Below, piece after piece: positions 12,195 to 55,651 of a stretch of 64,000 nt of DNA. Each line of letters starts with the position of its first letter. Within the stretch, counting starts at the first letter, position 1. Made by a program: the position numbers and the translations under genes. Source of the DNA: Sphaerolaimus hirsutus (taxonomy: Eukaryota > Nematoda > Chromadorea > Monhysterida > Sphaerolaimidae); contig OZ038452.1 in the NCBI GenBank assembly GCA_964036195.1, forward strand, positions 21,525,785 through 21,589,784, given 5' to 3'. The notes under the pieces are model-generated. The model was not told where the DNA came from, ran no database searches, and saw nothing but the letters and a program-made list of their open reading frames with translations.

Positions 12195-12718
12195 ATTTCA
12201 CACTTCAAAGTAGAGTACCGGAAAACACAACTTATTGCTACTTAAAATGCGCCACCCAGAATGTCGGCACCGAAATGCACGAAGGTCTGAGCGACACCCT
12301 AATCGAAAAGTTGCGAATTATTTTCAACGCACTACGTTGAACGTATTGCGCCAAAAATAATTTTTATTTTGTTGCGAAATGGGCGAAAATGGGAACGAAA
12401 TTAAAGAACAAGTTTAGAACGAAATAAATGCGATGATATGAATAACTGGTGAATTAAAACTGCGACGACAATTAGGAACAAACAATTAATAACACTTATG
12501 AAATTTTCGCGCTTTACCTTTTTACATAAAAACCCAACTTTTTGCTACAAAATTATCTCGCGCACAACCAAAAACACAAAAATTGCAACCCCGAACTCAC
12601 CACGAATTGACGGCCGAAATTAAACGCGAATAATCCAAAAATAAATTTTAATTGAATTTTCGAACAGAATAATTGACTTGAAGCACTTTAGGTTGAAGAG
12701 CGGAAAATCTCGGGGTTT
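12195..12718 (-). other. Spacer between integrase and helicase ORFs with a leader-like motif
   Basis: AT-rich, no ORF. Just upstream of the helicase ATG, in element orientation, is ttgtgttttccggtactctac. It closely resembles the sequence just upstream of the gag ATG at 19,448. It may mark a splice acceptor, promoter or other RNA-processing site used by both ORFs. Confidence 0.45.
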
Positions 12719-18500: not shown

Positions 18501-19448
18501 TACGTCTTGAAACTTAGCCCCAGCAGTAATAGATACATTCCTACGAATGTCAGGATACAATCCACTGACAAATTTCGCCACAGCCATCTTTTCGCGTTCA
18601 ATTTTTGAAAGTTTCGGGAAAGCGCGTTTTATAATTTTCTCCAGCCGCACTGACCAATTTAACACATCTTCATCTTCGCCCTGCTCACTACTAATCACTT
18701 CCCTTTGCGCATGATGCTCCGAAATGGGGTTAGTATAATAACGTTCCAAAGTGTCCATAAACTCCTCATAATCTAAATTAATCAATTCACTCTTATGCGA
18801 CATGTAAATCGAACGCGCGCTGTCACGCAAATAAACCGGAAGCAGCGATTTTCGCTCATCCGTCGGAATTTGCAACGCCTCACAAACTGCGTCCCAATTT
18901 TTACGCCAATCAGCAAATTTATCATCAGCGCGCCCCTTAAAAGGTATCACCTGTCCAGTAAGCGCGGTCATGGCAGCAGCATAACCCTCCCTACTAGTAG
19001 CAATCATACTCACAGCAGGTATAGGTGGTGTGGTAGCGGTAGAGCACCCTCCCGAATTAGAAACAGCGCTAATTACAGAATTAATCGCTTGCATATCAGG
19101 CTTTTCTAAATGAATATACTCAGCAAATGCATTAATCGCGTCCGCAATTTGACTCACATCATTTCGCAAATTATAGCAGTCAACACCTAACTTTACTAAT
19201 GACACTAATTTTTCGTCATTATCACTCATGTTCCCATTTTCCAAAGAACTCATGGGTCGCTGATTATACAAATAAGCGGCAATACTCACCGTTTGGGTCA
19301 CAACCTGACTAAGGTTCCATTCCGACCCCTGAACCGAATTCCCCACTATCGACGAATTAATTTGATTCAAAGTCAAATTTTTCGCTTGGATCAACAATTG
19401 CACCACATCGGGACCCGTGTTCACACCACTACCGCTCGCATGCGCCAT
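15522..19448 (-). CDS. Gag-protease-RT (N-terminal part) of the LTR retrotransposon
   Basis: The open frame extends upstream to a stop near 19,939 but has no ATG there. The first credible ATG is at 19,448 (MAHASGSG). Domains, numbered from the longer frame at 19,913, begin with a capsid-like region (about 330-500), then a CCHC nucleocapsid knuckle CYECGADDHFRSDCP near 585. A roughly 250-residue insert follows with a signal-like hydrophobic stretch (RVFFLCCLFTFFASADA, near 860) and a longer one (near 905-935). A retropepsin-like protease (LLDTGA near 1,058, ILLGADVLR) and the N-terminal RT up to YRRLN...PLPRLDD complete it. It ends at a stop created by the frameshift near 15,525. Membrane-type segments between NC and PR are not usual for this family. 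Confidence 0.85.
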   Translation of the reverse strand: MAHASGSGVNTGPDVVQLLIQAKNLTLNQINSSIVGNSVQGSEWNLSQVVTQTVSIAAYLYNQRPMSSLENGNMSDNDEKLVSLVKLGVDCYNLRNDVSQIADAINAFAEYIHLEKPDMQAINSVISAVSNSGGCSTATTPPIPAVSMIATSREGYAAAMTALTGQVIPFKGRADDKFADWRKNWDAVCEALQIPTDERKSLLPVYLRDSARSIYMSHKSELINLDYEEFMDTLERYYTNPISEHHAQREVISSEQGEDEDVLNWSVRLEKIIKRAFPKLSKIEREKMAVAKFVSGLYPDIRRNVSITAGAKFQDVVNNARTQESFLEIDKDKVGGKKKSKSNAELVSEATNSVIERIFALGGAGAFGNSPPVPAAAENPKFEEQRVKLEELSRQLEDKDKRLVDLEKQLIGNNAAKPVSKFRPRKFDEGCYECGADDHFRSDCPKLTEEEKARFRNFRRGPPQRPMNNFRGPANMMRSAQQPVYSMQAPPYLYYPPPAQVSTTSWSPVQQVQSSQMAIAAPPSTELTALNPTRVSANSVNHARSVQESKEYVRMIRVVPGLESSDEEAEDPCNPPEITPQEHQFMLEREAWIMPWVYARSLDSMIFRTKWWAQLQHMGLQGLNISGFCEHADEHPHDDPEDTLTYVKLEALLELTMHTFMCEPPDISLSRTSSDSELYVLSDYCEASVPTLYRTWSEPSMLPSVLNRVFFLCCLFTFFASADALGVPSGGVVKKKGVSDEWILTVRNFLEGFIAGMCTSVFLRYILPALCELVLYLVFTVCDWIKMRVLRVQLNRMLAIENRRNPARGATPVTPPQRLNPVSADSSGYSADIEETPVSRFKRLPPLRVPKGSAVMEKVNVVTLTSEEIANIKSITAKRKELVPIYYSPSITVEIEGNEYKRCLLDTGAMRSLCSPLVLARHRNNCIAFDEVTPVGGLQSASQCKLQIEGQLELQVMITGKAFSIVFQVISGLSDDILLGADVLRHMVIDMPARELRIESGDARKKLTVPFDNPSPVVQERHIYAVVTEPTEIKPRHETIISAKLSEPIDELTFAIEPLNEFHVKTGVFAANAVYESASELFPVRCVNVTEVPVKLQVGQKIAIVEPVECVLQVRRGDPPAEWVRECRERDMSFTDTILEASEEKVPTKGTVPSKAANTTMKVVCADGREMDFEVPVELDEIKRQQLKELILTHQDAFARDKYDLGYSELVDYRLQLTSKIPVACRMYRLSLDDQQYLEKHLSCLLEHDVIEHSTSPYCAPTLVVTKPDGAKRMVIDYRRLNAVVHAPQFPLPRLDDTIESLHSCKYF

Positions 19449-19954
19449 ACTCAAGGTAGAATACCGGAAAAACACACACTCACTCGACGACTGGGTACTC
19501 GCGCTTCGGTACCCGGCACTCGCGCTTCGGTGCCCTAACTTACTTTGCCCTACGGTCGGGAATGGCACCTCCGCACCCGCACTTGGCTTGCCTTGCTCAC
19601 AGGTCGGGAATGACTCCTCCGCACCTCTTTCAGGGACCGGTCCTTCCGCGTCCACCCAGCAGTTGACGTCAAAGTCGTTAGGTTCGTCACTCAACTCAGC
19701 GGTTCCCGGTTCAGAACAGTGCGCGTCCGTACTGAACTGAACCGATTTCGGTTTTTTCTTACTTTTCCGCTTTTCCCTTTTTTGCCCACTAATAATTTCG
19801 TCAGTTTCGCGTCCCAAAACAAAAATATCCGTGCTTATCGGTTGCGTCGATCGGGTAGCCTTCCGTTCCTCCAGCCGGGCGGTGGTTCGTTTGTTCTCAC
19901 CAGCGATTGTCAAACGGTGATCAGTCGCCTGAACTCACTGGGAATATTGAACAA

Positions 19955-19973: not shown

Positions 19974-22620
19974 TGTCATGAATTTTCACCGGCTACTTTT
20001 TACTCAACCAAATTCCACTATGGCAAACTGCCAAGTTTTACGGATCTCACACCTACTCGTTGGATGAGCGACAAAGTAAGGCAACGGAAAAGCGACTACC
20101 GATTGAATTCGCAACGCACAATGGTGAATTCACCGAAGTGAATATCACAGGTGTACGCTACGTCAATTAAGTTAGCTTTTTAGCGAATGGCGTTTTTATC
20201 AACGCACCAGCAATTAGTTGAATGTCTAATTTACACCAAGGGGTCCGAAGTTTTTAGAAGAGATTTTATTTTAGGCGATTGTTTAGACTCAGAATTCACA
20301 CATTTAGATAAAACACAGGGAACACACTGAGAGCGAGCTTCTAACCAGCGGCACAAAACCTTCGAAAAAACTCCAAGAAAATGAAACCGAAGCAATTTCG
20401 ACTGAATCGACCCCTACTCTAAATTACGGTACGCTTTTATACGCAACAACATAAGCCAAGTCCAGACAACACTTCCACATACCACGAGAAGCATGCTTAC
20501 GAACGACTTTACAGACACACGGAATTTTAAAACGGGCATACCTAAAATTATTCACGGCGTCAGTTTACAGGATACGTCGATCAACTACACAAAAACACAA
20601 AGAATTCACGCGCCAAAAATCGGGTTGGGAACAAGAGCGAGGATAAAAATAGAAAATGAGAAAATGAACGAATGCGACAAGAATAAAAAGAACAGGAAAA
20701 ACACACGAGATACTGTAAAAACCTGTTTTAGCGCGAAAAAAATGGCGGGCGATTCAAATTTTACTCAGCGAATTCTACCGAAATCCCAAAACCACCTCCA
20801 CGAACGGGGAAACACACAGCAATTAGCAAAACAAATAGACACGCGAACAGTAATCCCATCAGCAAAAAGAGCGTATAATAAACGAAAATGACGTTGATAT
20901 CCAAAGCGTAAGAAGCACACGTATTATTAATGCACAACGAAAAAATGTCGTAAGCGGGATAATCCATGATAAAATTAGGATACCGGTAAGGCGAATGGAA
21001 CTAACTTTCACACTGACTGTCAAGGAAAAAATGAATTACGGTACCTTTTTAAAGACTCTTAGCGGAAATTCTATCAGAGTGATTAAATAAATACGCACTC
21101 AAATCAGATCACCTTTACACTTATCAAAATATTCGGGGAAAAAACAGGAAAAACAAGCGGCTTATTATTTCATCTCTTTGTATAATAAAGATCAACCACG
21201 AAATTTGCATAAATTCCTAAATATCCAAATGTCAAGTTATCAGTTTTCTAGGGGAAAGGGAAATACAAAAAAAAAATCAATCTAGGATTAGGTAGATAAA
21301 AAATAGCGAAGTTGCAAACGTAAAATCAGATAAAAATTAGCATACTCGAGTTTTACCTATTCCCTACCAAACCTAAAGTTAAAATGAATATGAAGCCGGT
21401 ATAACGCTTAACAGAAATACGAACGCAAATGATTGGCAACTTGAAAGTTTATAAATTTCAATCTTTGTAGCTTAAATGCATGTTTGGATTGCATGACTTT
21501 TTGAAGTTTTAAAACTAAAACAAACTCAAGTGAATCCACTGCCACATGCCGAAACGCAACAGCCATTAACTACCGAAGGCACTTATCACGAAAATGACCA
21601 CTCTCGCTGCTACACCACTCATTCTGCTACCAGAATATTAATTAGTTAACCACGGCTTTTTGATCCCATACGCACTGTGCAAAAACCACACCCCGACAAT
21701 ACCGAACTGCTCAACTCACTCAAAAATAAGTACACTTGTCACTGTATGGGTGCTTGTTTCGATGAGATCGGCGGACTGGGCTGTTCTCACAACAAGCCAA
21801 GGGAGTAGGCATTTAGACATGCGATCATGCCTGTCGAGTTAGACTCGATTCTTTTAATTACCTCTCATTTTCAACACCAATCATCATCGCACCTCTATAA
21901 TCAGTGTACCTTTGTAAAATCGCGTGTAAATTAACTTTTTGTTTCCCAATCCGGAAATGCAGAAATGCACAGTACATACTAGATCAATAGCCGCGACCCT
22001 CACGTAAAAAAAAAAATGCAACGAGAATTAGTCAAAATTCAACCTATGTGCCCTCAGTTATCACTGACCATTCACGCACTACGACACGTAACTGCAGTGT
22101 CACTCTTTTTACTTAGAAAAAATAACTGAAAATTTGTTATGCAATCCAAACCGCTAGTAAAAAATTACTTTTAAATTAAACTGTCACAATTAAAATTGTT
22201 GCCAATTCACTTGTCTCACTTTCTTAAAAAAAAAAAAAAAAACTACCTAATTAAAAAAAATCTAAACAAATAAAAACAACTATTTACATCACAGCGTCAA
22301 CTTTGTGTCAGATCCTCAATACCTCCAATCCTTTCCTTGGCCAGAAAAAACACACATAACACAATGGGGCACCGGAAAAACGGAAATGCACGTTGCCACG
22401 TTGCCAACGTAGCGCAGCGACGTAGCCGAAAACGTCAACGCCACGTTCGCCCACCGAATCGCCCAAAACCATCGTCGAAGTAGAACTGAAATGTTTAAAT
22501 TGTTGTAAGCTCGGAAGTGTAAACAACCCTCTACATAAATTCATTAAGTGAACTATATATACATTTACACTTAAAATTTTTTGAAATTTTACAATTTTTG
22601 GACACCCACTTTTGCTCACA
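19974..22620 (-). repeat. 5' LTR of the helicase-bearing retrotransposon
   Basis: Direct repeat of 4692-7337. In element orientation it begins TGTGAGCAAAAG and ends TTCATGACA. The target duplication CAAC follows at 22621-22624. A TATATATAG word at 22561-22553 on the element strand could be a core promoter, though it is only about 60 bp inside the LTR. Confidence 0.93.
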
Positions 22621-37829: not shown

Positions 37830-40800
37830 ATGGTGGCGCCGCTGGAGCCGCTGTGCGTCCGGCTCGGCGTCGACCACGCCGCCCTGTCGGTGGTGCTGCT
37901 CGAGGTGGGCACCGGCACCATGAGCTACGTGTTCGGCTTCTACTACGTCAAGGTGTTCCTCAACCACTACCACATCACCGAGCCCTGGTTCCAGTTCGCC
38001 CAGGCGCTCTTCATGGTGTGGAACGCCGTCAACGACCCGCTGTTCGGCTACATGCAGGTGGGCGCCTCCGCTGTGTGGGTAGATGTGCTAGTTGCTCAGG
38101 TGGAGGGCGAGGCTGCGCACTAGTTGACATCAAAATTCGTGTCAACTAAATTCAAAGTATGATGCTTTTTAAATTTTTGTATGTTTTTAGTTGACACGAA
38201 TGTGCGCTGTCAACTAGCGTGTGTCAATGGGTACACTGTCCACTAGGACATGCCCGGCTGGGGCTGGTCGTGGATGCGCAGCCGCCGCAAGTCGATCCTT
38301 TACTCGTCGCCGCTGTACGTGGCCTCGTTCCTGATGTTCTGGTTCCCCTGGGCGGACTACGGCGCGACGCCCCAGCCGCCCGCCTGGGTGGCCGGCATGC
38401 ACCTGCTCGTCGCGCTGTTCTGCTTCGACGGCGTCCTCAGGTGCGTGCTCAGGGACTGTTTGAAACGAATGCAAGTTGGCTGCACGGTCAGGTGTCGATT
38501 CCGCAAGTGGAGAAGTAAAAAAGTAAAAAGTGAAGTAAAAAGTAAAACGTGAAGTAAGGAATTAAAAGCGAAGTAAATTTTTTATCTTTTCACTTTATTC
38601 GCTTTTCCAAATTTACTTCACTTTTTACTTCAAATTTCACTTTTCAATTCACTTCGCTTTTAACTCTTTACTTCTCCCGAATTGTCATCAAATCCATTTT
38701 TCACCCTCGTCTATCACAGTTTGCATGCGTGTACATGCGCAGCTTCGCTCTGCTGGCGTGGAGTGCCCTGTTCGCTGAATTGACAGTGGACCCGGTGCGG
38801 CGCGTCCGCCTGCTCAAGTACCACCAGGTGGTCGCGCTCTTTTCCGTCAATTCCATCGGCTTCATCGAGTGGTCGTCCGACAGTCTCCGGGTTAATATGT
38901 TTCGTTTTCATGGTCCACCTGTCGCATGCGTGTGGCAATTAAGGGGTATCCTAGATTTTGACCGCCCGGGGGGTTGGATAGATGGTTGGTGGGTCACCCC
39001 CTCCTAGGGTTCAAACGGGATTGACTTTTCGGGATCGGGATCGGGATCGGGATTCACTTTTTGAGATTTCGGGATGGGGATCGGGATCGGGATTGGGGTT
39101 TCGGGATCGGGATCGGGATCGGGATTGGTTTTTTGAGATTTCGGGATCGGGATCGGGATCGGGATTGGCCGGGATTGGGGTCACGGGATCGGGATCGGGA
39201 TTGGGATAGGCATTTTTCCGGGATCGGGATTGGGTTCTAGGGAAAGAGATTTTGGCCATTTTTCTGGCATTCACAGTTCTTCATAAAGGTCTCAAAACAC
39301 TGTTGGATGCCAGAAAAGTGGCATAAAATTGACGCTGGGGGTTTGCATCCACTTTTTTGCATGCAAAAACGTCATTATTTCACTTTCTATAATTTCCACT
39401 AATTTTTCCGGGATCGGGATCCCGGACTTGGGAGTTTCTCGGGATCGGGATCGGGATTTGAAAACTTTCGGGATCGGGATCGGGATCGGGATTGGTATTT
39501 TTGAGATTTCGGGATCGGGATCGGGATCGGGATTGGGGTTTCGGGATCGGGATCGGGATCGGGACTGGTAAATCCCGGAATTTCACGGGATCCGGGATCG
39601 GGATCGGGATCCCGTTTGAACCCTACCCCCTCCCCAACACCTCATTGGATACCCCTGTAGCAACTACTGACTACTGCCCCTCCATACTCAGAACTATGGT
39701 CTGTTCCAAGCGGTGAACATCCTGATCGGCGTGATAGCGCTGTTCGCGATGAGCTACACTGGGCTGTACGCGCCCGACGACGCGGCCCAGTCGGTGCAGC
39801 AGCAACAAGGTGGATCTGATAAACTCAAACCGCCCAGTGCAGATGCCCAAGCTAGGTGAGCAGCGTGTACAAATACTTGTGTCTGGAGCAGGGTTTTCAT
39901 AATCCCAGAAAAAAATAGAAAAAAATGGAAAATTGAAGAATAAAATGAAACATAAGCAAAATTAAAATAAAATAAAAATTTTATTCAATTTTAGAAAAAA
40001 GAATGTTACTAAAACCAATACTGGTCTGGAGTGTAGACTTTAACCCGAATTTTTTTGCTTCGAAATACAAAAGTACCTTGTCAACGTTATTTAACTCCTC
40101 AATTTATAAAGATTGGGGCACTAAGAATGGGGTCATTTATGGAGTTTGAATCTTTGGTGAAATGAATGAATGATTTAAATGAAATGAACGTTTATTTTGC
40201 TTCCCAGCTGGGGGTCTGTGGGGCGAACGACCTGCGAGATAATGGGCTCTGCCGATTTCCACCGCGTCACCTGGTGCAATTTTCTGCACATCAGCCGCGG
40301 CGCCGCTCTGGGCAGTTTCGCAGCCATTTTCACCGAGGCGCTGATCAGCCGCTCCGTGCTGCCGCTCGGATCCTGGCAAATCTCAGTCTTCTATTGGCTG
40401 TGTTCCGTTGTGCCACAGGTGGGGGATAAATTGAAGTGTACAACCTGAAGATTGGCGTGTAATTTCGAGCGTCGAGAACTAGGATGGCAGAAGCGTTTTT
40501 TCAACGACCCGGTTTAAAAAAGCGTTTTTTAAAAACACCTTTAAAAAAACCCGACCATCCCTAGTGAGAAAATTCGAAACAATGCCCACTGGTGCTTGTC
40601 GCAGATCGCGGTGATCGCCACCTCCTCGCTGATCGTGCGCCACGGCAGCCAGCGCTACTTCGTGTTCGGCTTGTGGGCCACGGTGGCGTGCTCGCTGGGC
40701 GTGGCGCTGCTGGGCAGGCACGACCCCTACGTGGTGCTCGGCTACATGTTCCTGTGCAGCGTGTTCACCCGCTTCGCCTCGTCCCTCTTCAACGTGCTCT

Positions 40801-41725
40801 TCTCCGAGCTGGTCGACGCGGACACGCGCCAGTTCCAGCGAGCCGCGCCCGTCTCGTCGCTCATATTCTCGCTGAATGCGTTGTGCACCAAGCCGGTCGG
40901 ATTTTTTTCGATCACTGATATTTATATTTTGTGGGGGTGGTTTAATTATATTTTTTCTTTTTGATGAATATTCTGAGATTATTTTTAATTATAAAAATCC
41001 AAGCGGGCAAGCTTCAAATTTCAGGTGAAGTGTTGACGATCATCTGAAAATTCACCTATTTTGACAGCGCATGTTAACTTTCTTCATGTCAGTTTACTGG
41101 AAATTTTAAAAATCGTCCGAAAATAGTCACTTGAAGTGCATTTATTAGAATTGCCCTGAATTATACCCACGCTCAACCACGACGTGATAACGTGCTAACC
41201 GCAGGCGCACTCGATCGCCCCGATGTTCGTGACGCACGCGCTGGTCAGCTACGGCTACAACGAGTACAAACTGCTGGCGCAGGCGTCCGGCGCCCTCGGC
41301 TCCAGCGCCAGGAACGCCAGCAGCCTGGCCGACCCCGCTGCCCTGGACGACACCTTGGACAGTCAGGTGCCAGTCCCAGACCTCGTAAAATGTCAAATGT
41401 CATGCAAAGTGTCAAAAGTCATGGAAAGAGCCCTGCAAAATGGCGACTCGGTTGCCATTTTGCAGGGCATTTGACATGACTTTTGACACTTTCTATGACA
41501 TTTGACATTTACAGGGTCTGGGACTGCCCCCAGTTCGCGCCGCTCAAGGACGTCATGTTCACGCTGCTGTGGTCCGTGCCGCTGGTGCTCGCCTTGGGCG
41601 AGTATCTGCTGCTGCGCGGCTACACTCTCAAAGATAAGTACAGGGAAGGGCCGATTGGCGAGAAGGGCGCCAGGCCGGACGAAATTGAATCTCTGCTGAA
41701 GATGACCGAGGACCAGATTTTGTGA
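37830..41725 (+). CDS. MFSD13A: MFS transporter, MFSD13A/TMEM180 family (8 exons)
   Basis: Exons: 37830-38057, 38247-38440, 38743-38890, 39692-39855, 40208-40418, 40605-40895, 41205-41366 and 41534-41725. All phases agree and give 529 residues, close to human TMEM180 as I recall it. The N-terminal signature FYYVKVFL...LFMVWNAVNDPLFGYMQ matches the family's membrane helices and NDPLFG loop. Further hydrophobic blocks include SPLYVASFLMFWFPWADYG, and ALCTKP precedes HSIAPMF. It is probably a polytopic membrane protein with sodium-sugar-symporter-like fold; the substrate is unknown. The ATG at 37,830 follows a possible acceptor (cgccag), so an upstream non-coding exon is possible. Introns are full of MITEs, and intron 7 is an introner-like element. 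Confidence 0.85.
38114..38226. mobile_element. Palindromic MITE (GCGCACTAGTTGACA ends) in intron 1 of the MFS gene
   Basis: TGCGCACTAGTTGACATC with cgtgtcaactaaa is mirrored by ttagttgacacgaatg and CTGTCAACTAGCGTGTGT. Same terminal family as 41,972-42,123 and 3,100-3,290. It occupies most of the 189-bp intron. Confidence 0.65.
38495..38690. mobile_element. Palindromic GAAGTAAAA element in intron 2 of the MFS gene
   Basis: The left arm gattccgcaagtggagaagt, then aaaaaagtaaaaagtgaag, is mirrored by cacttcgcttttaactcttt and acttctcccgaattgtcatc. The arms resemble the cleaner palindrome at 53,389-53,556. Confidence 0.6.
39005..39625. mobile_element. hAT-like MITE with (cgggat)n arrays in intron 3 of the MFS gene
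   Basis: The perfect 17-bp inverted ends TAGGGTTCAAACGGGAT and ATCCCGTTTGAACCCTA are flanked by the exact 8-bp duplication CCCCCTCC (38997-39004 and 39626-39633). Two long blocks of tandem cgggat units (about 39,030-39,240 and 39,410-39,610) flank a short unique core. Non-coding. Confidence 0.9.
40480..40562. mobile_element. Possible very short hAT-like MITE in intron 5 of the MFS gene
   Basis: TAGGATGGCAGAAGCG and ACCCGACCATCCCTA are approximate inverted repeats around an A-rich core with gcgttttttaaa words. The flanking octamers match at only five of eight positions. Confidence 0.35.
41367..41533 (+). mobile_element. Introner-like element forming all of intron 7 of the MFS gene
   Basis: The whole 167-bp intron is one palindrome. 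The left arm starts GTGCCAGTCCCAGACC and runs through gtaaaatgtcaaatgtcatg to gccctgcaaaatgg. The right arm mirrors it (ccattttgcagggc...gacatttacag) and ends TCTGGGACTGCCCCCAG. The terminal inverted repeats provide both the GT donor and the pyrimidine-rich CAG acceptor. CAG ends the upstream exon and also ends the intron, consistent with a 3-bp target duplication. Removal joins ...DTLDSQ to FAPLKDV in frame. It is nearly the same sequence as 52,245-52,441 in a different gene. Confidence 0.85.
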
Positions 41726-43910: not shown

Positions 43911-44331
43911 CCAAGGGGCCAGTCCACCAAGCTGACAAGTATACTCGGCGGACCGCACGCTATGCATTTTTCTGAAGGAAACACCCCATCATGACGTCAT
44001 CGTAATAAATGGAAAAATTATTTAAGCAAAAAAAAGAAATAACGTTTCGGGGAAAAACATTCGTCGCTTGTACGCCACTCTGCCTTTTCCTTTTAAGAAT
44101 ATTTTTCCTTTGTGAGAAGTGGGTACATAAATATCCTGCTTGCGTGTTATCAACAAAAACAGAAGTAATTTTGGGCGCATACTTTGCGGTCCGCCGAGTA
44201 TACTTTACTCTTGACTCTTCACTTTACTCTGGACTTTGCTCTTGTGTTTGAACTTGACGCTTAACTTTGCCACTTGCGGAATTAGCGCCAGGGGGCAGTC
44301 CCAAAAACACTTGCCGAACTGGCCCCTGCAT
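43911..44331. mobile_element. Possible decayed element with AGGGGCCAGT ends, containing a nested MITE
   Basis: AAGGGGCCAGTCC at the left and GGCAAGTG-type sequence ending ACTGGCCCCTG at the right (inverted) bracket the TACTCGG MITE at 43,942-44,200. The right part contains gccacttgcggaattagcgc and agggggcagtccca, words shared with the introner and GAAGTAAAA palindromes. Confidence 0.35.
43942..44200. mobile_element. MITE with TACTCGGCGGACCGCA ends (orientation A)
   Basis: 259 bp, TACTCGGCGGACCGCACGCTATGC to GCATACTTTGCGGTCCGCCGAGTA, flanked by TA on both sides. It shares its interior (tgacgtcatcatgatgg-type words) with 45,003-45,260 but lies in the opposite orientation. Confidence 0.85.
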
Positions 44332-44573
44332 TGCCTAGATCACAATCTGTAGCTTTTGTTACCTACGTTCTCTTTACACTCAGGTGTATTTCGAGGTGGG
44401 AAGGGGGGCTAACAAATTCATAGTGTCCATTTTGAGAGAGGTTTTTTGAGGGAGGAAATACGGTACATGCAAAATTGATCTGATGGCCTTATTCATCAAG
44501 AATACGCGACATCTAGTGTAAAGCGTTCAGCCCCTCAGTAGCTGCCCAAGCCAGCGTTGTCAACCAGTTGGCA

Positions 44574-47500
44574 ATGCGCGTGTCGCAGTTCGCCAAAGAG
44601 GCCACGTCGATGCTGCCCGAGCCGGTGCTGTTCTTCCCCATGTTGGCGCTGGCGCTCGGCCTCACCTTCGACGTGTTCGGCAAGAAGGCGGTCATCGGCA
44701 AGATCCGCTTCCCCAGCTCCGTGTTCCAATTCACCACCACCATGCTCCTGTCGGCGCTAGTGTTTGCCGTCGTCTCAAAGTGCCAGCAGGTGTGTATGAA
44801 TTTCTTAACCTGGCGAGATTATTGCACTGCCCGACTTCCTGGAGTCGTGCACTGTCTGACACATTTATATACCGTATTTATTACCTCGAATTACCCCCCG
44901 GGTGATTGATTTTTTATAAATTTTGAGAAATGGAAAATTTCGAGAGTGGAAATTTTGAGGGGGTATTTCGAGGAAATTCTTTATTGGCAGGCTTTGCTTG
45001 TATACTCGGCGGACCGCAAAGTATGCGCCCAAAATTTTTTATGTCTTGGTCTATAATGCGCGAGCTGGATAATTATGTATGCACTTTCACAAAAAGAAAA
45101 ATATTTTCAGAAAAGAAAAGGCGGAGTCGCGTACAAACGAGGAATATTTTTTCCCGAAATGTTTTTCTTTTTTTGCTGGAATGATTTTTATTTTTTTGAT
45201 GATGACGTCATGATGGAGTGTTTACTTCAGAAAAATGCATAGAATGCGGTCCGCCGAGTATTATTAGATCTCGACAAATTTGGACAGTGGTACTTTCAAA
45301 CAATACAATCTGTCGGACGTCGCAGAATTTCTTCCCATGTATGCAGTCTCGTCAAATCGAAACTTATTTAGTTACCATATTTACTTTTATTACTTATTAC
45401 CAAATTATTTTTTGCCAGACCAGAGTGGATTATTCAAGGGGGGAATTTTTTCTCGTCAAAATTTTCAAGCATGTTTCTATCGATTTATTTAATGAAATAT
45501 GGTCTATAAAAATAATTCATCGACTGTTTTGAAAGGCATAATATGGGCAGAAATTTTCTTCCATCGGTGGGGGGGATTATTCGAGGGGGAATTATTTTTT
45601 CCTCACTCGTCTGACAGGGGGAATTATTCGAGTAAATACGACATATCACTGCACTTTTGCCACAGGACCTACCTAGATACATGTTCTAGTAATTGAATAT
45701 ACTCGCCATTGCGTAGAAAAGTAAAAAATTCAGTCAACTGCCGCGCTATTTGCGAACGCGCAGCTGCGATTCGAGAAGACGTTCGCGGCCTGGGCGGACA
45801 GCCAGATCCTGTCGCCCGACCTGCTCATGATCATGCTGCTGCCCGTGCTCATCTTCGAGAGCGCCTTCAAGATGTCCGCGCACGCGTTCAGAACCAACAT
45901 GTCCACCATCATCACCGTGGCGTTCTCGTGCTACGTGTTCACCACCGCCTTCCAAGGTTGGTTTTCCTGCAGGGGTAGGCCTAGGGCTCGAAACTCGATT
46001 TATTTCAAACTCGAGTTCGAGTCGCAACCCAAAAAAATTTCCGGTCGAGTTGGCGAGTCGAGTCGGATGAGCCAGTGAAAATTCGAGTCGAGTCAGGCAA
46101 AAATGTCGAGTCTCGAGTCGAGTCAGAAGCGTTACTTTTTGGCATGATGCTTGCAGAAATTTCAGATACTTGTTTCTCATCTACCATTCTTTTCACACAC
46201 ACTTAATGGAGTCTAAATGCCAACAGTTTATTTCACTATAAAAATAAAGTGTAAATATAACTTACATGTTCACTTTCTTGATGTTGCACAAATAAAGTTG
46301 CAAAAATAAAACCAGTCTAGCAATGGAAATACAACATCTTTTTATGATCTGGTTTTTATGATAAAAACAACAATATTTTTAATAGAAAAACCATTGAAAA
46401 ATGCCATCCGTTAACCACCAGGTAAATCACACATAAAGCCAATGTCAGGCAATGATTGGAAAGTCCCTTGTCAGAAACAAGTACTTTTTATATTCACAAA
46501 AGATGGGGGTACTTATCATATGAAGATGTTTAACTACAACCAGGGATTTATCTAGTATTTTTTAATGGGAGTGTTTGTTTACCCTCTGTAATGGTGAATA
46601 AATGGTGGGGGCTTACTTACCACACACAGAAATTTTATCTACACAAACGGATTCATGCCATTACACTGGCCCTTTCATAGGCACCACAACATGGCACTAT
46701 TGGCAATAAGAAACTTGAGCTTTAACATCATTCAATACATCCCAAGCCAATCAATGATATATCATGCATATTGTGTGGAAGTGTGCACTCATGCGCAAAT
46801 TTTTTGAAAAGTATGGCAAAAAATTCATATCAAAATTGGATATTTTGGACATTATTCAATGGGAAACCGGACTCGAAATTTGCCAAAATTTCGAGTCGAG
46901 TCGGGCAAAAACCTCGAGTCTCGAGTCAGGGCCATATTTTTCCGGTCGAGTCTTTCGAGTCGAGTCGGTACCCTATTTTACCCTCGAGTCACGAGTCGAG
47001 TCGAGTCGAGTCGAGTTCGAGCCCTAGGTAGGCCACTAAATAAATACAATGAAATCTAATTGCGAAATTGCGCACTTGCGCGCAAAATTTTTACAAAACG
47101 TTGCTAAGTTTTTAGCTAAAGGGGCACCTTCCTGTACTTTTCTAGTCTGACCCCGGGAGCCCCCCCCGCCCCCCCCTGGATACGGCCCTTGTGCTATACC
47201 TGAACATCGAACACTTGTTCATGCAAAGTTTTGTATCGTCATGTATTTCTTTCGGTGTATTGCTCATCCATCGCCATCAGTTACTGATTTCTGCCTCAAA
47301 TACATTATGCCTGTCAGTATCAAACGCTATCAAGCGGGAAAAAATACATGCTTGCGAACCAAAATCTAAAGTACATAAGAAATTATTGAGTGACATAAGT
47401 ATCACAGTATCTACACCGAACAAGTTTACCTATTTGAATACAAAGCTTGCACTCAGGCGGGCTGACCTACGTGGCGCTGTGGGCGGCGGGCGTGCGCCTC

Positions 47501-50500
47501 TCTGAGTCGTTTCTGTTCGCGTTGATGGTGTCGGCCACGGACCCGGTGGCGGTGGTCGCCCTGCTCGAGGACATCGGCGCGCCCTTCGGCATGCGCACCG
47601 TCATCGAGGGCGAGTCGCTGCTCAACGACGGCATCGCCATCGTCGGCTTCAAGGTGAGCTCCGAGACCTCGCCAATGGAGATGACGTGGAAATTGTCAAA
47701 ATTCCCTGTAAAATGTGAAATGTTATACAACGTGCCAAAAGTCGTGTAAAATGGCAAACTAAGTTTGACATTTTACCGGGCATTTTGCATGATTTTGGAC
47801 ACTTTCTTTGTACTATTGTCGTGCCTGTCGTTTACTACACAGGTGTGCCGCTTGGCGCTGCGGACTGAACTCGATCTTTTGGAATGCTGGTCAGAATGGT
47901 ACCTCCCATTAAAGCTCGTGGCTGGTGTATCCGGTAATTTCGTAATTGAGATATTTTTTTAACTAAATGGCTTGAGAATTCCTCCTTTTTAAGGTTCAAT
48001 GGTGCTGGGTGTTGTCTGCGGCTACGTATTTGTGTTTTTCATCCCGCAACTTCTGTTGCTGCACAAACAGCAGCACTGCGCCAACATTCTGATTGTATAC
48101 AGCGTTTTCTTCGTGGCCGACCGCGTGAGTTATACATATTGTGCATACGCACACTAGTTTACAACCGTAATTTTTTTAAATTTGTAAATTCGTTGTAATT
48201 CGTTGTTTTTTTATTGTAATTTTGAAGTTACTGAAATGAGCTATTTTTAATGTCTGTCAACTTTAGTTGTGAACAGCTCAGTCCAGAAAACTAAAATGCT
48301 TTGAAGCTGATCTTTGAGATTCCTAAATTTTTGGTTTAGTTGTTGTCAATTGTGTAGGGGTCAGTTATAATAGACCTACTTGCGTCCAAAGCACATTCAA
48401 ATTCATCTCATAGGTCATATCTGGCTCTGGCGTGCTGGCAGTGGTCTCTTTTGGACTGACCATGAATTACTTCCAACACTATCTAAACCCGGGCATGGTG
48501 GAGAAAACGAAGGAGGTGTGGGAATTTCTTGGCTACTGGGCTAATTGTATAATCTTTGTCTTGGCTGGATATTCAGTTGGCAAAGTTCGTTTTGAAGGCT
48601 GCGAAATTTTATTGCAATGATGCACCTAGGGCTCGACACTCGATTTTTTTAAACTCGATTTCGAGTCACTGCCCCCGAATTGTTCCGGTCGAGTCGGCGA
48701 GTCGAGTCGGCCGAGCCGAGTCAGTGAGTCAGTTGGCCGAGTCTCGAGCAAAAAACCTCGAGTCTCTAGTATGAGACCCTCGAGTCACGAGTCAGTCGAG
48801 TCGAGTCGAGTCGAGTCGAGTGCCCTAATGCACCACTAGGCAGTGACAATGTATGATAAACTCGGCAGACATTATGCGAGTCAATGGTCTAACGAATTTT
48901 TGTACAAGTGCCATTCTAACCCAATTTCATTGTTATTGACACTCGTATTTCATGCGTAGGGATGACCATCAACAAATTTTTCAATTAGATAAGTGAACGT
49001 CACCGTCGAAATTTGAATTTAAGATCTACACTTGATAAATATACGATAATTTCTTATTATTACGAACATAGTGAGCATTTTATGTTATTCAGAGCAATTT
49101 TTAGATTTTCAAAACGATCCAGATTTAGCTAGTGGTGTACAGTGTACAGGGTCGTTCTTCCCTTGTTCTATCGCACGCACACATACGTACTTTTTTGTTG
49201 GAATTTGTCCGGGCTGTTACAATAAAATACCTTGTTATCTGCTTTCATATGACAATATGCGTGTTCAGTTTATCCTGTTCTCGCATAAAACGTCGGATTG
49301 AATAAGATTTACCATGAATCGATTGGAATGCATTCATTCAAATTCAAAATTAACTTAACAATTTTAACGAAATTTAAAATTGGTACATAAGGGCCGAATC
49401 ACTGATTCCTTTCATGTCTGCCGAGTTTACCAAACTGCTGCCCGGCGCAGGTACTGGGCAAGGGGTCATTCGACATGATCGTCACCAGCTTGCTGATGGC
49501 GCCGGTGAGCGTGGCCGGCCGCGCCGCTTTCATGGCCATATTCTTTCTGATCAATCAATGGCTGCGTGGGCTCGAAGGGCGGTCCGAGAAGATCACCGAC
49601 TACCTTTGTTACACTTGGGGTGGGCTGCGCGGCGCATTGCCGCTGTTGCTTAGGTGGGTGATTACCACCACGTGGTGCGTATCTTTGTTTAGGCTATAAT
49701 TTTGAAGGAAAAGCTGTACTGTATACCATTGAAGTCGGATAACTTCATACTCCAAGAACTGCAAAACGGCTCTAGAGTAGTGATGGAATGGCGCCATTGG
49801 CGCCTGGCGCCATTTTCTCTGGCGCCCTCTTGGCGCTGGCGCCATCATTTCGAATGGCGCCATGGCGCCCTTGGCGCTTGGCGCCACTTTTGCTGGCGCC
49901 AATTTGGCGCCCGGCGCCATTGTTTTTCATGGCGCCAGAAATGGCGCCAAAATGCCGCGATGAGTGCTGACATTATTCCGTATACAAGTACCTTATCTGC
50001 TGAGTGACATCATTTTATTATTTAGCATATTGAACCATGTCATTTTTTTGCTAGAATTACAAGTTTGGCTTGCTGTTCATTGTTTTTATTCCACATAAAC
50101 AGCAACACTATGCCCCCACGCTGAGATTAGCACCAGAATGTTTTCATTTGACATGGCAAAAAATGACACTAATGCATTTACACAAGTTTTGTTACACTCT
50201 AGTGTGATAACGTCCATCTATGCTTGCTAGCATGTGATAATCTGTGATTATGGTAGCAGATATAACAACTAGTCAATTTCCTTCTTTACAAAATACAAAA
50301 TATGAGACATCATTCTCAATGCATTCTTATTGTCTTCTGTCCTATTCTAAACACTACCCTATCTAAATTCATTTTTATATGTCACAAAATTTTCATTTGT
50401 AGGTGGTATAAATATGTGGCAACTCAACATAAACTAGATTTTCTGTACAAATCACCAATTCAATGCTGTCTCATGTCACTTCAAGGTCAGTTGTAAATTG

Positions 50501-53500
50501 TTTATAACCACAAATGACAATTGACTTGATGAATGCATTATATCCTTGATTATGATGTTGTAGTGTTTTTTAATTATCAGGTAACTGTTATAACATATTG
50601 CCCTTAACAAATAAATGCTTCTGTTAGAATATACATGCTAAAATGGTGACTTTTATCCTTGGCGCCATTTTGGCACCTGGCGCCATTGTTTCTGGCGCCC
50701 TTTGGCGCCTGGCGCCATTTTCTCTGGCGCCATCTTGGCGCTGGCGCCATGGCGCCATTTTTCCTGGCGCTTTTCCATCACTACTCTAGAGTATGGCATG
50801 CACAAAGCCATGATGTCATATTCATGGAATATTCTATATATTGGTTAATTTAATATGTGGAATGCTGTTCGATTGAGCTCCTATGCAATACTTTAATCTG
50901 ATAAGTTGAATCATGGTTGATCCATTGTGTCATTTCCATTTGTCATGAACAGAAATACAACCAAACAACTCCCTCATGATTTTTTGTTACAAATTAAAAG
51001 GAAATTAATTCCATTTATTTAATCACCCAAATTAATTCAAGCATATCCAAATTCATAGAAAACTATCGCAGTTGGGAATTGCGCGAGATGCGCCAAGAAC
51101 TGGCGGAGTCGGGCATGGCGCCGCAGCCACTGGTGGACATCGTGGGGCACATCTGCCTGCGCAACCTTGTACTCACCTGCGGCACTGTGTTCGGCAGTCT
51201 CTTCATTCAAGGTGATGTCATTTTTAACCAAAAGTGTATTTAAGTAAGCTACGTTTTTGTTTGTTGGCACTGCCCCAAACCGAAGTATTTGCAGGGTTGA
51301 CCTTCGAGCTGCTCTGCACAAAAGTGGGCTTAAAGCGTCGCAGCGAATACAAAAATGAACTGGAACGACAAATGATGACAGAAGTGCGCACACAAAAAGT
51401 TGAGGAACTACTGCAGAAGTGGAAATCTGACTGGACAGGCGCGTATACAGGGGTAAACTGGACAAAAATCAGAACGATTCTCAATGAACTATTCGAAGCG
51501 CGCCGCAAGCAGACAAATCCCAAGCGATCGCAAGAGAAGATGAAAATATCCCCCGAGAACCCCGGGGAGGAGCATGATAATCTACTGGTATGGGCCTTGC
51601 TTATACTGTGACGTCAATATACTGTATTACCTCGAATTAACCCCCTTCGAAATGACCGCCCCCCCCTTGAAATACCCCCAGGTCTGAGCGACCTGGGGAA
51701 ATAATTAGCATCGCAGTTGTCCCCCGTCTTGAATTATGTAATACATCATGTATGTACATGATGTTCAAATTGCCAATTAGCATCGCAGCTACACATATGT
51801 TTTGTGTGGATATTTATTTACCTAGTTAAATGTATAGGTATGTCCAAATATATATTCTTTTGTCACAATTATTACCAGTTTTGGTATGTAAAAGCCTATT
51901 ATTTACTATGATCCTTCACGAAAATTTCTGACAAAATAATATAAAAAAACCTTGAATAACCAACCTCCCTTTCGAATTAACCCCCCTTAAAATTAACCGG
52001 CGAAAAAAACACCCCTGGCGGTAACTCGAGGAAATACGGTAGGAAACTTTCCACCACCAAAAGCGCCCCCACTCAGGACATGTCCACCGGCTCGGCGGGC
52101 GAGCAGAGCGTGGGCGCCGCGTCGCAGTTCTACGTGCACGGCACCTCAAGCGCCGGGGGGCCGGGCGAGTCGTCTGCGGGCGGGGCCGGCGTCAGCACCA
52201 CGGGCACCGGCGAATCGGTGGGCGACTCGGCTTGGCAGCACCAGGTGCCAGTCCCAGAGCCTGTAAAATGCCCTGTAAAATGTCAATTGTCATGCAAAGT
52301 GTCGAGAGTCATGTAAAATGCCCTGCAAAATGGCAAACGGGGGACGGATGCCATTTTGCAGGGCATTTTACATGACTCTTGACACTTTGCATGATATTTG
52401 ACATTTACAGGGCGTTTTACAGAATCTGGGACTGCCCCCAGGAGGTGGACTACCGCGAGACACCGAAGGCCTACTACCGCATCATGAAGGCAGAGGTTTG
52501 GCAGCTGTGGCAGCAGGGCATCCTGTCGCCCAGCAGCGTGCAGCACCTTATCAATGCGTTCAACCACGCCATCGACGTGGGCACGCATCAGCACTATCTG
52601 TTTTGGAAGTGCATCCTCACTGAACGGTAATTTTCATTTTTCACATTCATGTAAAAGAATTTCTTGTGATCCATCACCTTCAGCGGAATCTTCGACAAGA
52701 TTGAGCGACATGTGGCCATTTTTTGTCAGAAATTGGCACGTTTCTTTATAAAATACAAACTGCTCCAGCAGCGGCCGCGCGACCACTCAGTGAGCGAGGA
52801 TTGGTTCACAATCCTTCTCACGGTAGCTGCGATTATTGAGGCGGTCAGTTCTTTTGCCATGCTCAGATTTCGGCAATGCATAATATCGTATTTCCTTGAA
52901 TTGTACCCCATCGAATAAATTTTTATCAAAATTGTGAGACAAAAATAACTCCTGCGGAATTATTCAAGTGTATACGGTACATGTATACATGGCCATATTT
53001 TTTAAATGATTAAACATAAATGTTTTTTTCAGGCACTATCCACAATTACCGTAACGCAACACATGACTGAACCAGAATCTGAATGGTACATCGTGATTGA
53101 AACGATGATCTGCACCATCTTTTTCATGGAGCAGTTTTTCCAATTGGTCAATCGACACATGAGAAAACGGCAGATGAGGACCAAGCGCGGAAGGGTGCGT
53201 CTATCAGGCGCATAAATTCCTAAACGAAGCGTCCATTTGCCACAGAATGGCGGATTGAATTAGCCTGACACTCTTTTCGGGCAGTACGGTTCATTCCACC
53301 TGATAAAATATGCTGCCAGATTCAATGGCCACATCAATTCCACCACAACAGAGTGGTTGACAATGACATCAGGGGAGGGTACAACAGGGGGGCAGTTCTG
53401 CAAATTGAGAAGTGAGAAGTAAAATGGCAAAAGCGAAGTGAATTGATAAGTAAAATGGCAAAAACAAAGAGAAATTGCTTCTTTTTTTTCTTCGCTTTTG

Positions 53501-54557
53501 CCAATTTACTTCGCATTTGCCATTTTACTTCTCACTTCTTAATTTGCGGAACTGCCACTGGGTCGACTGGTACCCATCCAGATTTCAGTTGATGGGTCGC
53601 TGAATAATGTTCAAATGCACATGCGAATAATAATTCATTTTCCACATTTTGACATTTTGACCAATCGACACAGCACTCTGGGAAATATAATCTCCAAAAT
53701 ATCATCCAAATCCAAAATAGCAAAATATCAGGGTAATTAAATTCCGCGTCTTGTAGCAGTGTGTATATACTGACCCGTTTTCAGATGGTCATGGTGATCA
53801 GCTGCTGCATGTCAGCTGCCTATCTACTGATTGTGATTACGCTGGCCATAGCAATTTGGCCCAAGCAATCGCACCACCTTCACCCGACCCGGAAGTGCAT
53901 GAAATCGTTTGTTTCTGTTGTTGAATCGGCACCAGGAGAAAACAAGTGGAGACATAAAAAAAACAATTTACCGTATTTCCTCGAAATACCCCCCTGGGGG
54001 TTTATTTTTTCAGAGTGAGAATTTTGAGGGGGATTAAACGAGGGGAGGTATTATGAGGGAAGCTTATTATTTAATCAGACATTTGTTGAACTGCCATTAC
54101 TAATTTGTTGTTTGTATGTAACGTTACGCAAACGTAGAAAACGCAACAATAAGCACCATATATAAGAGTCTATAGACTTATTTATATAAAAGTAGATGGT
54201 ATTATGTAACCCTGTTCTAACGTAACACAGTCATTGATTTTAACGTGTGTTCTGCATTGCCCGGACCACAAACCGCAGTTTTTGTCATTTAGACTCAATT
54301 TGAGGGGTATTTCGAGGGGTGTTATAAATTTTGAAGGGGGGGTATTTCGAGGAAATACGGTATAAGTGATAAGTAATTTCTAAAGTGGCTGAAAGAGCAC
54401 GCTTTATATTGCCGTGCCCCTCTCGCATGTGCAGAGCGGGGCGATACGATCACAAGCAGCTGTGGCGCAACGGGCCCGACGACCCCGCCTTCTGCCACCT
54501 GGTGCGCTGGCTGCTGCTCGTCGTGCCCGCCGCCAACGCCATCATCAAGATGATCCT
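44574..54557 (+). CDS. Na+/H+ exchanger of the sperm-NHE (SLC9C) type, 15 exons, partial
   Basis: Exons: 44574-44789, 45764-45956, 47457-47653, 47843-47933, 47994-48124, 48414-48584, 49451-49653, 51072-51211, 51295-51587, 52077-52244, 52442-52626, 52684-52843, 53033-53194, 53785-53894 and 54435-about 54557. All junction phases agree. The exchanger domain shows PDLLMIMLLPVLIFESAF, SATDPVAVVALLEDIGAP, the ion-binding GESLLNDG (Asn-Asp at 47624-47629) and TWGGLRGALPLLL. After FGSLFIQGLTFELL a charged cytoplasmic region follows. The last exons carry hydrophobic segments resembling a voltage-sensor module, as in SLC9C proteins. The cyclic-nucleotide domain and stop are not seen, so the gene may continue past the retroelement at 56.3 kb. 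The N-terminus may extend upstream. Predicted role: voltage-tuned proton/sodium exchange at the plasma membrane. Confidence 0.75.
44872..44975. repeat. CCGTATTT...ACCTCG foldback fragment in the first seen intron of the exchanger
   Basis: Left end ataccgtatttattacctcg and right end gggggtatttcgaggaaatt are inverted repeats of the CCGTATTTCCTCG family. Confidence 0.6.
45003..45260. mobile_element. MITE with TACTCGGCGGACCGCA ends (orientation B)
   Basis: 258 bp, TACTCGGCGGACCGCAAAGTATGC to GCATAGAATGCGGTCCGCCGAGTA. Inverted relative to the copy at 43,942-44,200 and about 800 bp away from it. It lies within the first seen intron of the exchanger gene. Confidence 0.85.
45375..45640. mobile_element. 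Foldback element, CCATATTTACT/AGTAAATACG variant
   Basis: The right arm gggggaattattcgagtaaa matches the 37,524-37,754 element, with a decayed inverted left arm starting ccatatttacttttatta. Intronic. Confidence 0.45.
45982..47026. mobile_element. hAT-like MITE with (cgagt)n arrays in an exchanger intron
   Basis: Ends TAGGGCTCGAA and TTCGAGCCCTA with the exact 8-bp duplication GGTAGGCC (45974-45981 and 47027-47034). Blocks of gtcgagtcga-type tandem units lie at 45,995-46,125 and 46,880-47,020 around about 750 bp of AT-rich, non-coding core. Confidence 0.9.
47654..47842 (+). mobile_element. Older introner-derived intron in the exchanger gene
   Basis: The 189-bp intron contains ccctgtaaaatgtgaaatgt, caaaagtcgtgtaaaatggc and the mirrored gacattttaccgggcatttt and ggacactttctttg. 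This is the interior of the introner-like elements at 41,367 and 52,245. Its 5' end GTGAGCTCCGAGACCTCG is alignable with GTGCCAGTCCCAGACCTCG, although the donor is now a standard GTGAGC. The acceptor end has diverged (ctacacag). Confidence 0.6.
48627..48827. mobile_element. Short hAT-like MITE with (cgagt)n array in an exchanger intron
   Basis: TAGGGCTCGACACTCG and CGAGTGCCCTA are inverted ends. ATGCACC precedes and follows them, seven of eight expected duplicated bases. It is a 201-bp relative of the element at 45,982-47,026. Confidence 0.75.
49778..50783. mobile_element. hAT-like MITE with (ggcgcc)n arrays in an exchanger intron
   Basis: TAGTGATGGAATGGCGCCA at the left and GGCGCTTTTCCATCACTA at the right, flanked by the exact 8-bp duplication CTCTAGAG (49770-49777 and 50784-50791). 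Both ends contain about 120-190 bp of repeated tggcgcc words; the core is AT-rich and non-coding. Confidence 0.9.
51622..52039. mobile_element. TA-flanked CCGTATT-CCTCG foldback element in an exchanger intron
   Basis: CTGTATTACCTCGAATTAACCCCC at the left mirrors GGCGGTAACTCGAGGAAATACGG at the right, with TA on both sides. It fills most of the 489-bp intron before the exon at 52,077. Confidence 0.75.
52245..52441 (+). mobile_element. Introner-like element forming an entire exchanger intron
   Basis: The 197-bp intron is a single palindrome beginning GTGCCAGTCCCAGAGCCTG and ending TCTGGGACTGCCCCCAG. The arms gtcatgcaaagtgtcgagag and catgtaaaatgccctgcaaa are mirrored around a short gggggacgg loop. 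The flanking exons end in CAG and resume GAGGTGGAC, in frame without any change (phase 0). Terminal sequences and most of the arms are the same as in intron 7 of the MFS gene, yet the two genes are unrelated. This indicates transposition of a unit that carries its own splice sites. Confidence 0.88.
52886..52978. repeat. Short foldback fragment (CGTATTTCCTTGAA ends)
   Basis: atcgtatttccttgaattgt at the left and attattcaagtgtatacggt at the right; decayed member of the CCGTATTTCCTCG family in an exchanger intron. Confidence 0.5.
53389..53556. mobile_element. Palindromic MITE with GGCAGTTCYGCAAATT ends in an exchanger intron
   Basis: GGCAGTTCTGCAAATTGAGA then agtgagaagtaaaatggc is mirrored by gccattttacttctcact and TTAATTTGCGGAACTGCC. 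The extreme termini share the GGCAGTYC core with the introner-like elements, and aaaatggc also occurs in both. This copy lies inside a longer intron, not at splice sites. Confidence 0.75.
53971..54360. mobile_element. TA-flanked CCGTATTTCCTCG foldback element in an exchanger intron
   Basis: The best-preserved copy of the family: CCGTATTTCCTCGAAATACC at the left and GGTATTTCGAGGAAATACGG at the right, perfect inverted repeats, with TA at 53969-53970 and 54361-54362. The 390-bp interior has no ORF. Confidence 0.85.
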
Positions 54558-54798: not shown

Positions 54799-55643
54799 TA
54801 GTGATGGAATGGCGCCATGGCGCTGGCGCCATTTGAGGGCGCCAAAGGGCGCTGCGCCATGACGCCATTGGCGCTTGGCGCCCTTTTTCTGTGGCGCCTG
54901 GCGCCCACTTTCTGAAAGGCGCCATGGCGCCCTTGGCGCTTGGCGCCCTTTTTCCGTGGCGCCCTTGGCGCCTGGCGCCCGGCCTTAAAAGGGCGCTAAA
55001 ATGGCGCCAGCAGGGTTTCGAGGTGAGTGCTGCATAAATGCAAAAAAAATGAAAAAGCGAGCTGTACATGAACGAAATTCGCTGGAAAATGACGAACTGG
55101 TGCGATTAGATGAAAATCTTTTGTACAACAGTTCGTCAGACGCTTCTGACGGATCAAACGCTGAGAATGATTGACCGTGTAACATGCAAACCCGTAAATC
55201 AACGGGATCAAATCGCTGCAATTCCGTTTTTGTCCATTTGAAAAAAAACATTTGTGAACAGAAAACATAATTGAAGTGAATACTTTTTTGTCAAATGACA
55301 ATTTTCATCGTGTTGTAATTCAACGTGGGTATGACTTTATCCAAAAATCGTTGCTAGTCTCCTTTTGTTCACTACATCCTGGAGAACGTGGATAACGAAG
55401 TGAATGTGTGCATGACAGTTATAGGGAAATAACACACACAGTGTGTTGTTTGCACGTTTTGAGCATGGCGCCCTTGGCGCCTGGCGCCCTATTTTTTAAA
55501 TGGCGCCATGGCGCTTGGCGCCCTCTTTCCGTGGCGCCCTTGGCGCCTGGCGCCCATTTTCTGCGCTTGGCGCCCAGTTTCCGAATGGCGCCATGGCGCC
55601 ATTGGCGCCTGGCGCCCTTTTTTCTGGCGCTTTTCCATCACTA
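54799..55643. mobile_element. hAT-like MITE with (ggcgcc)n arrays, second copy
   Basis: TAGTGATGGAATGGCGCCA and GGCGCTTTTCCATCACTA with the exact 8-bp duplication GTCAGATG (54791-54798 and 55644-55651). Same termini as 49,778-50,783 but a different core, so the two copies share ends and arrays only. Confidence 0.9.
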
Positions 55644-55651
55644 GTCAGATG

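Follow-up and report, generated by a model that had tools for sequence, protein, structure and literature searches.

How can two unrelated genes come to hold almost the same intron? The window analyzed here, a stretch of 64,000 nucleotides from the nematode Sphaerolaimus hirsutus, raises this question on its plus strand, which carries a TMEM180-like MFS gene (37830..41725, 8 exons, 529 aa) and a partial model of a Na+/H+ exchanger of the SLC9C/sperm NHE-like type (NHE; 44517..53194, 13 exons). The tenth intron of the NHE model (52245..52441, plus strand) comprises 197 bp and runs from GT, with its first G at 52245, to AG, with its last G at 52441. Intron 7 of the MFS gene (41367..41533, plus strand) measures 167 bp. 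According to an earlier reading of the sequence alone, both introns follow a CAG codon in phase 0, and the open-frame models of the two genes agree on this. The same sequence-only reading ascribed common ends and arms to the introns and proposed to align them. This alignment, run end to end, yields 152 matches, 12 mismatches, and 36 gap columns, with 152/164 aligned bases equal; the first 14 nt and the last 17 nt are identical, both introns starting with GTGCCAGTCCCAGA and ending with TCTGGGACTGCCCCCAG. An nhmmer search using the NHE intron as sole query returned the MFS intron at an E-value of 5.4e-32.

The frame of the MFS gene runs without interruption through its 8 exons, and a previous version of the gene model could be aligned with homologues both upstream and downstream of the intron 7 junction. 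The NHE gene seems to extend downstream of the 13 modelled exons; here, homologues can be aligned on the downstream side of the intron only, the upstream side being a Gly/Ser-rich linker absent from them. The shared intron directly follows a low-complexity linker in both genes (41205-41366 and 52077-52244), one that the aligned homologues do not have. Closest solved relatives of the exchanger are sperm-specific, and the best match with a eukaryote name in the protein search, ranked behind three proteins without organism name, is from the nematode Steinernema. The MFS protein sits on a long branch of its tree and adjoins 14 sequences, 13 of them named nematode (100/99 support), a position that would suit a nematode beyond the sampled group or a close relative of nematodes. 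RNA folding sets the two introns apart: at -0.69 and -0.77 kcal/mol per nt they fold nearly end to end and have by far the lowest energies among the 19 introns of both models, the other 17 ranging from -0.06 to -0.39 kcal/mol per nt.

An element and its duplicated target make up both introns

Alignment of the ends divides the NHE intron into an element copy (52245-52438) and a 3-nt remainder (52439..52441). All parts described here read on the plus strand. The 5′ terminal inverted repeat, GTGCCAGTCCCAGA (52245..52258), supplies the GT donor and is matched by a 3′ terminal inverted repeat, TCTGGGACTGCCCC (52425..52438). Between them lies a fold-back whose left arm (52278..52335, 58 nt) is 95% complementary to the right arm (52349..52406). 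Within the 14-nt ends, the 5′ end equals the reverse complement of the 3′ end at 12/14 positions, and the two differences include the T of the GT donor on the 5′ side. The repeat core common to both introns is separated from the 5′ end of the intron by 4 nt and from its 3′ end by 7 nt. If the element ends are symmetric, the 3 nt left over on the 3′ side are CAG, the same 3 nt that precede the intron, and thus constitute a 3-bp target duplication. The first target copy (52242..52244) stays exonic and forms the codon directly upstream of the intron, and the second (52439..52441) supplies the AG acceptor. MFS intron 7 has the same composition, a second full element copy (41367-41530) followed by the 3′ target copy CAG (41531-41533), with the 5′ target copy CAG at 41364..41366. 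The earlier claim that the element is the entire intron needs one amendment, as the final CAG is duplicated target and lies outside the element. A window-wide search for inverted repeats flanked by CWG gave four candidates, of which these two copies score best. It is confirmed that the NHE intron and MFS intron 7 are two copies of one transposable element.

The window contains further repeats. Another fold-back element (53391-53556, arms of 55 nt, 93% complementary) has ends GGCAGTTC.../...GAACTGCC that recall those of the element described above, but it lacks a GT start. Inverted pairs with TATACTCGGCGGACCGC-like ends (43941-44203 and 45000-45261) flank an NHE exon and look like another MITE family, and clusters of GGCGCC-rich units occupy 49794-50750 and 54829-55650. 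Direct repeats of 2.65 kb (4692-7337 and 19974-22620), 99.9% identical, enclose roughly 18 kb resembling an LTR element. Within it, long frames on the minus strand (12719-19934) appear gag-pol-like by eye, with one weak PNMA match, and an extra frame of 1517 aa (7644-12197) bears an AAA_12 domain and is helicase-like; none of 7999 scored candidates matched this helicase-like frame at E 0.001.

Copies of the element across the genome

We searched the 348-Mb assembly that holds the window. The exact 5′ end GTGCCAGTCCCAGA occurs 2225 times, its backward control not once. It is preceded by CAG in 1013 and by CTG in 868 cases, together 84.5%, triplets that make up 2.9% of the trinucleotides in the window (1.4-1.5% each). 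At the other end, TCTGGGACTGCCCC is found 1218 times with CAG and 1020 times with CTG, and an AGTG variant of the 3′ end 818 and 474 times, respectively. Both ends were joined for the exact places listed on contig C1 below 25.2 Mb, where 48 of the 161 exact 5′ ends found a partner among the listed 3′ ends. Target pairs were CAG/CAG in 26, CTG/CTG in 16, CTG/CAG in 4, and CAG/CTG in 2 cases (Fisher p 2.5e-7), with CTG/CTG undercounted because the list of AGTG-CTG ends was not included. Pair counts and triplet preference therefore define the target as CWG, which is duplicated upon insertion. The sequence-only reading had missed CTG, although it is nearly as common as CAG. Its proposal that sense insertion of one mobile unit explains both window introns is supported by the number of exact 5′ ends and by the 3-bp target duplication.

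Scanned viral contigs contained no copy of the element. Transposase genes of the DDE_Tnp_4 (PIF/Harbinger) type gave at least 163 matches genome-wide, with 150 of 306 candidates scored; many copies reach nearly equal scores, and most of the listed alignments contain stops, possibly introns. At the one PIF-type locus that was fetched (L117), no transposase with the ends of the element was found.

Element copies interrupt coding exons

A positional sample was drawn from the first 70 listed exact 5′ ends at the start of contig C1 (L047-L116). A recognizable 3′ end was present in 57 of these and missing in 13; targets were CTG/CTG in 16, CAG/CAG in 15, and other or unequal in 26. Relaxing the ends and adding loci chosen by similarity (L001-L046) raised the set to 122 copies, from which 33 CAG/CAG and 28 CTG/CTG copies entered a frame test, the remaining 61 with unequal or other targets being left out. 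With codon scores for which the MFS and NHE genes served as training set, the best frame of the left flank was compared with that of the right flank after removal of the element and one target copy. The frame continues across the junction in 24/33 CAG and 17/28 CTG copies, against one third expected, and when the right flank is shifted by 1, 2, 4, or 5 nt continuity drops to 5 or 6 copies. A strong coding signal (score over 10) was obtained for 11/33 CAG and 9/28 CTG copies, among which continuity rises to 10/11 and 8/9; some copies look non-coding. The NHE copy (L001) belongs to the training set, and without it continuity amounts to 23/32 for CAG. With flank lengths between 45 and 120 nt, the counts range from 16 to 24/32 for CAG and from 15 to 18/28 for CTG. 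A first, stricter coding test (continuity 8/18 and 7/19) was too weak and was replaced by the one with shifted-frame controls.

Lack of a match between copies and intron boundaries, which would speak against the earlier claim of insertion, was sought in this set; what was found is the exact continuity described above. In-frame flanks establish insertion into an exon only and not thereby removal. The flanks of 37 positional copies have a GC content of 0.548, compared with 0.466 at CWG sites of the window and 0.442 at CWG sites of the same loci away from the element. The element lies in sense orientation in 15/18 strongly coding, frame-continuous copies. Orientation varies with flank length, CAG copies at 45 nt counting 11 sense vs 9 antisense, and CTG copies taken alone show 12 sense vs 5 antisense (p 0.07). 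Retention of the element would introduce a stop or a frameshift in every frame in 32/33 CAG and 26/28 CTG copies, and the predicted RNA fold pairs the two ends with each other in 32/33 and 27/28 copies, respectively.

Protein homology across the junctions

Thirty joined flanks, selected by eye and by score as the most coding-like and including two antisense frames, were compared with Pfam, and 17 of these 30 had no match at E 0.1. CAG junctions are spanned by laminin EGF (L033, 8e-16) and PAN (L089, 1e-4) domains and weakly by VWD (L087, 0.013), CTG junctions by 7tm_1 (L113, 4.2e-5) and short-chain dehydrogenase (L003, 1.1e-6), with weaker matches to PDEase (L017, 0.003) and tetraspanin (L106, 0.08). 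Only laminin EGF, PAN, and dehydrogenase exceed Pfam's own cut-off. Alignments with PDE1B and with protochlorophyllide reductase pass the CTG junctions of L017 and L003, respectively, without a gap. The CTG copy L005 interrupts a gene whose sequence we read as Patched-like, Pfam giving no match; a paralogue with 31% identity shows residues 5-58 as one unbroken stretch of 54 codons across the junction. L107, also a CTG copy, codes in antisense by score and fits the model proposed below poorly. Element copies thus interrupt coding exons.

The phosphodiesterase gene of L017 is present twice, and the second gene (L118) carries the element at the same CTG. In both, exons are open over the matched part, and the exons compared are nearly unchanged. 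In L118 (G000:C14:4207020-4207820) a further mobile element sits exactly over the 5′ splice site of the inserted copy and has duplicated the donor; it has perfect 11-nt inverted repeats CATAGGCGGCG and an 8-bp duplication ACCTGGTG, a hallmark by which we presume it to be hAT-like.

A model for intron creation

The ends, the inverted repeats, the 3-bp duplication, the roughly two thousand exact 5′ ends, and the insertion into coding exons are established. We consider it very probable that the shared intron is an introner, that is, a non-autonomous, almost fully palindromic, MITE-like DNA transposon that targets CWG and duplicates 3 bp. Sense insertion at a CAG would give a pre-mRNA reading CAG/GTGCC...CCCC CAG/, in which the spliceosome would use the GT of the 5′ repeat together with the AG of the second target copy. 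Since the element brings the GT and the second CAG serves as acceptor, splicing would restore the exon and mRNA as they were before insertion. At a CTG the same removal would proceed with a TG acceptor (GT-TG), perhaps aided by the hairpin that joins both ends, and a later T-to-A change would turn the CTG acceptor into CAG. According to the predicted folds, the paired ends may bring donor and acceptor together. We infer splicing for every copy of either class from their sequences.

CTG copies and the acceptor question

Excision of a CTG copy would take out GT...CCCCCTG. Within the element, the final AG usually lies 19 nt before the end of this excised piece, and its use would shift the frame. 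Removal of CTG copies as GT-TG introns is less certain than the other parts of the model. With a slight preference, we favor the reading that one family gives rise to two kinds of intron, GT-AG at CAG and GT-TG at CTG, in comparable numbers and depending on one base of the CWG target; TG acceptors would then be accepted on a large scale, probably via the fold-back, and CTG would mature to CAG by selection. Copies that landed without the usual acceptor signal seem to be tolerated as well. If this reading is true, intron birth and splice-site optimization are visible within one family.

Alternatively, CTG copies might stay in the RNA as recent or harmful gene-breaking insertions, and introns would be confined to the CAG class. 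GT...CTG breaks the AG rule, and any recent insertion would also have in-frame flanks. We nevertheless judge this rather unlikely, as the positional sample contains CTG and CAG copies in about equal number (16 vs 15) and divergence from the family consensus is alike, with medians of 7.1% for 23 CTG copies and 6.9% for 28 CAG copies (copy lengths 140-215 nt). Moreover, several CTG copies lie in conserved motifs of open frames, and the phosphodiesterase gene occurs in two places, each time with the CTG copy and with open exons throughout the matched part. Unequal targets fit either reading: CTG...CAG outnumbers CAG...CTG by 12 to 2 (p 0.013), or by 10 to 2 (p 0.039) when the palindromic copy L061, which is counted in two rows, is set aside, and by 4 to 2 in the exact-end join. 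Such an excess is expected if the 3′ target copy is an acceptor under selection, but it also fits selection against CTG.

That CTG copies are spliced at a canonical AG close by, with a small number of codons gained, appears quite improbable to us. GGGAG/TGCCCCCTG, present in some CTG copies, would extend the frame by three codons, and a first sample had this variant in 5/19 CTG vs 1/18 CAG copies. AGTG as a rescue acceptor of CTG copies was dropped, as the genome counts run the opposite way, the variant being rarer at CTG ends (474/1494, 31.7%) than at CAG ends (818/2036, 40.2%; p 2.9e-7). Such a deficit might arise if an AG ahead of a weak TG acceptor did harm, but the history of the subfamilies may also have produced it. 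No in-frame AG is present between 60 nt inside and ~45 nt beyond the element in L113, L106, L110, L059, L083, and the 124-nt copy of L075. In L017, extra codons would hit a conserved phosphodiesterase motif, and its paralogue L118 has ACTG.

Alternative origins of the introns

For the two window introns, an ordinary old intron might have received the element later. An example of such nesting may be present in the NHE gene itself, where the intron at 47654..47842 (plus strand) harbors an eroded family copy (match 47698-47810). The beginning of the intron is similar to that of the family at a level reached by 4/1992 GTG sites, namely the two full copies, this intron, and one other, but its 3′ end is unrelated, 342/923 CAG sites scoring as high. 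In both full copies, by contrast, element boundaries and splice sites agree to the nucleotide, and the two target copies serve as the last codon of the exon and as the acceptor; the CTG copy L005 breaks an exon that is continuous in the paralogue. Nested insertion is therefore very improbable as a general account; we reject it for the two full copies and regard it as possible for 47698-47810.

RNA-based propagation, by which an intron, once spliced out, would enter other transcripts through reverse splicing and return to DNA as a copy, has been proposed for fungal introners (PMC9860276), and both window copies are indeed entire introns in sense orientation. It is hardly credible here in view of the inverted repeats, the duplicated 3-bp CWG, and the existence of CTG copies, for which excision of a canonical intron is impossible. 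Somatic DNA excision in the manner of ciliate internal eliminated sequences, which by exact removal leaving one CWG would suit CAG and CTG copies alike and render splicing unneeded, has similarly slim prospects, as the assembly contains the copies and orientation should be irrelevant, yet sense prevails in the strongly coding, frame-continuous copies (15/18). Insertion of a DNA transposon that becomes an intron remains the preferred origin.

Comparison with known systems

The origin of spliceosomal introns is an old open question. Introners are known from algae, dinoflagellates, fungi, and few animals; they are rare in the latter, with two animal groups in the 2022 survey by Gozashti et al. 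(PMC9860276, as excerpted). Marks of transposition, that is inverted repeats and target duplication, accompany most but not all introner families. The roughly two thousand exact 5′ ends of the present family, its defined target, and the internal control of CAG vs CTG would make intron birth directly testable, including the sufficiency of a TG acceptor at birth and later improvement of the acceptor.

Like the introners of that survey, as far as its excerpt describes them, the present family shows similar introns in unrelated genes, inverted repeats, target duplications, and a donor carried by the element with the acceptor taken from the duplicate, a type described for Chrysochromulina in the legend of Fig. 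2C (PMC9860276). Unlike these, it combines an animal genome with CWG targets, and a CTG class does not feature in the excerpted description of the survey. The predicted GT-TG splice sites are shared with the introners IE-B and IE-D of the alga Micromonas (PMC3879977, excerpt), which have 25 and 6 members and prefer phase 2. Those are GT-TG throughout, whereas here one family ends in CAG or CTG according to its target. In human genes, TG serves as acceptor of U2 introns at alternative sites in 36 genes (PMC2374985, in part), which are not a transposon-made class. Hairpin introns are also formed by the introner elements of the dinoflagellate Amoebophrya (PMC7789003), for which the available text reports direct repeats of 3-5 nt at exon borders, many non-canonical introns, variable splice motifs, and no detectable family-specific inverted repeats. 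A search of the open-access literature found no introner tied to a CWG-targeting animal transposon and no single introner family split between CAG and CTG acceptors.

The target itself recalls that of NuwaI transposons of the PHIS superfamily, which likewise duplicate CWG (PMC4482050, excerpt) and are mobilized by a DDE transposase and a Myb/SANT protein. NuwaI inverted repeats usually start with GGG (PMC4482050); here the 3′ side reads GGGGCAGTCCC (GGGG) and the 5′ side GTGC, the GTG start of the 5′ repeat providing a splice donor. NuwaI is reported only from animals, namely fish, beetle, crustacean, mollusc, and anthozoan, with no nematode in the excerpted account (PMC4482050). The present family would thus link intron creation to a CWG-targeting type of transposon reported only from animals.
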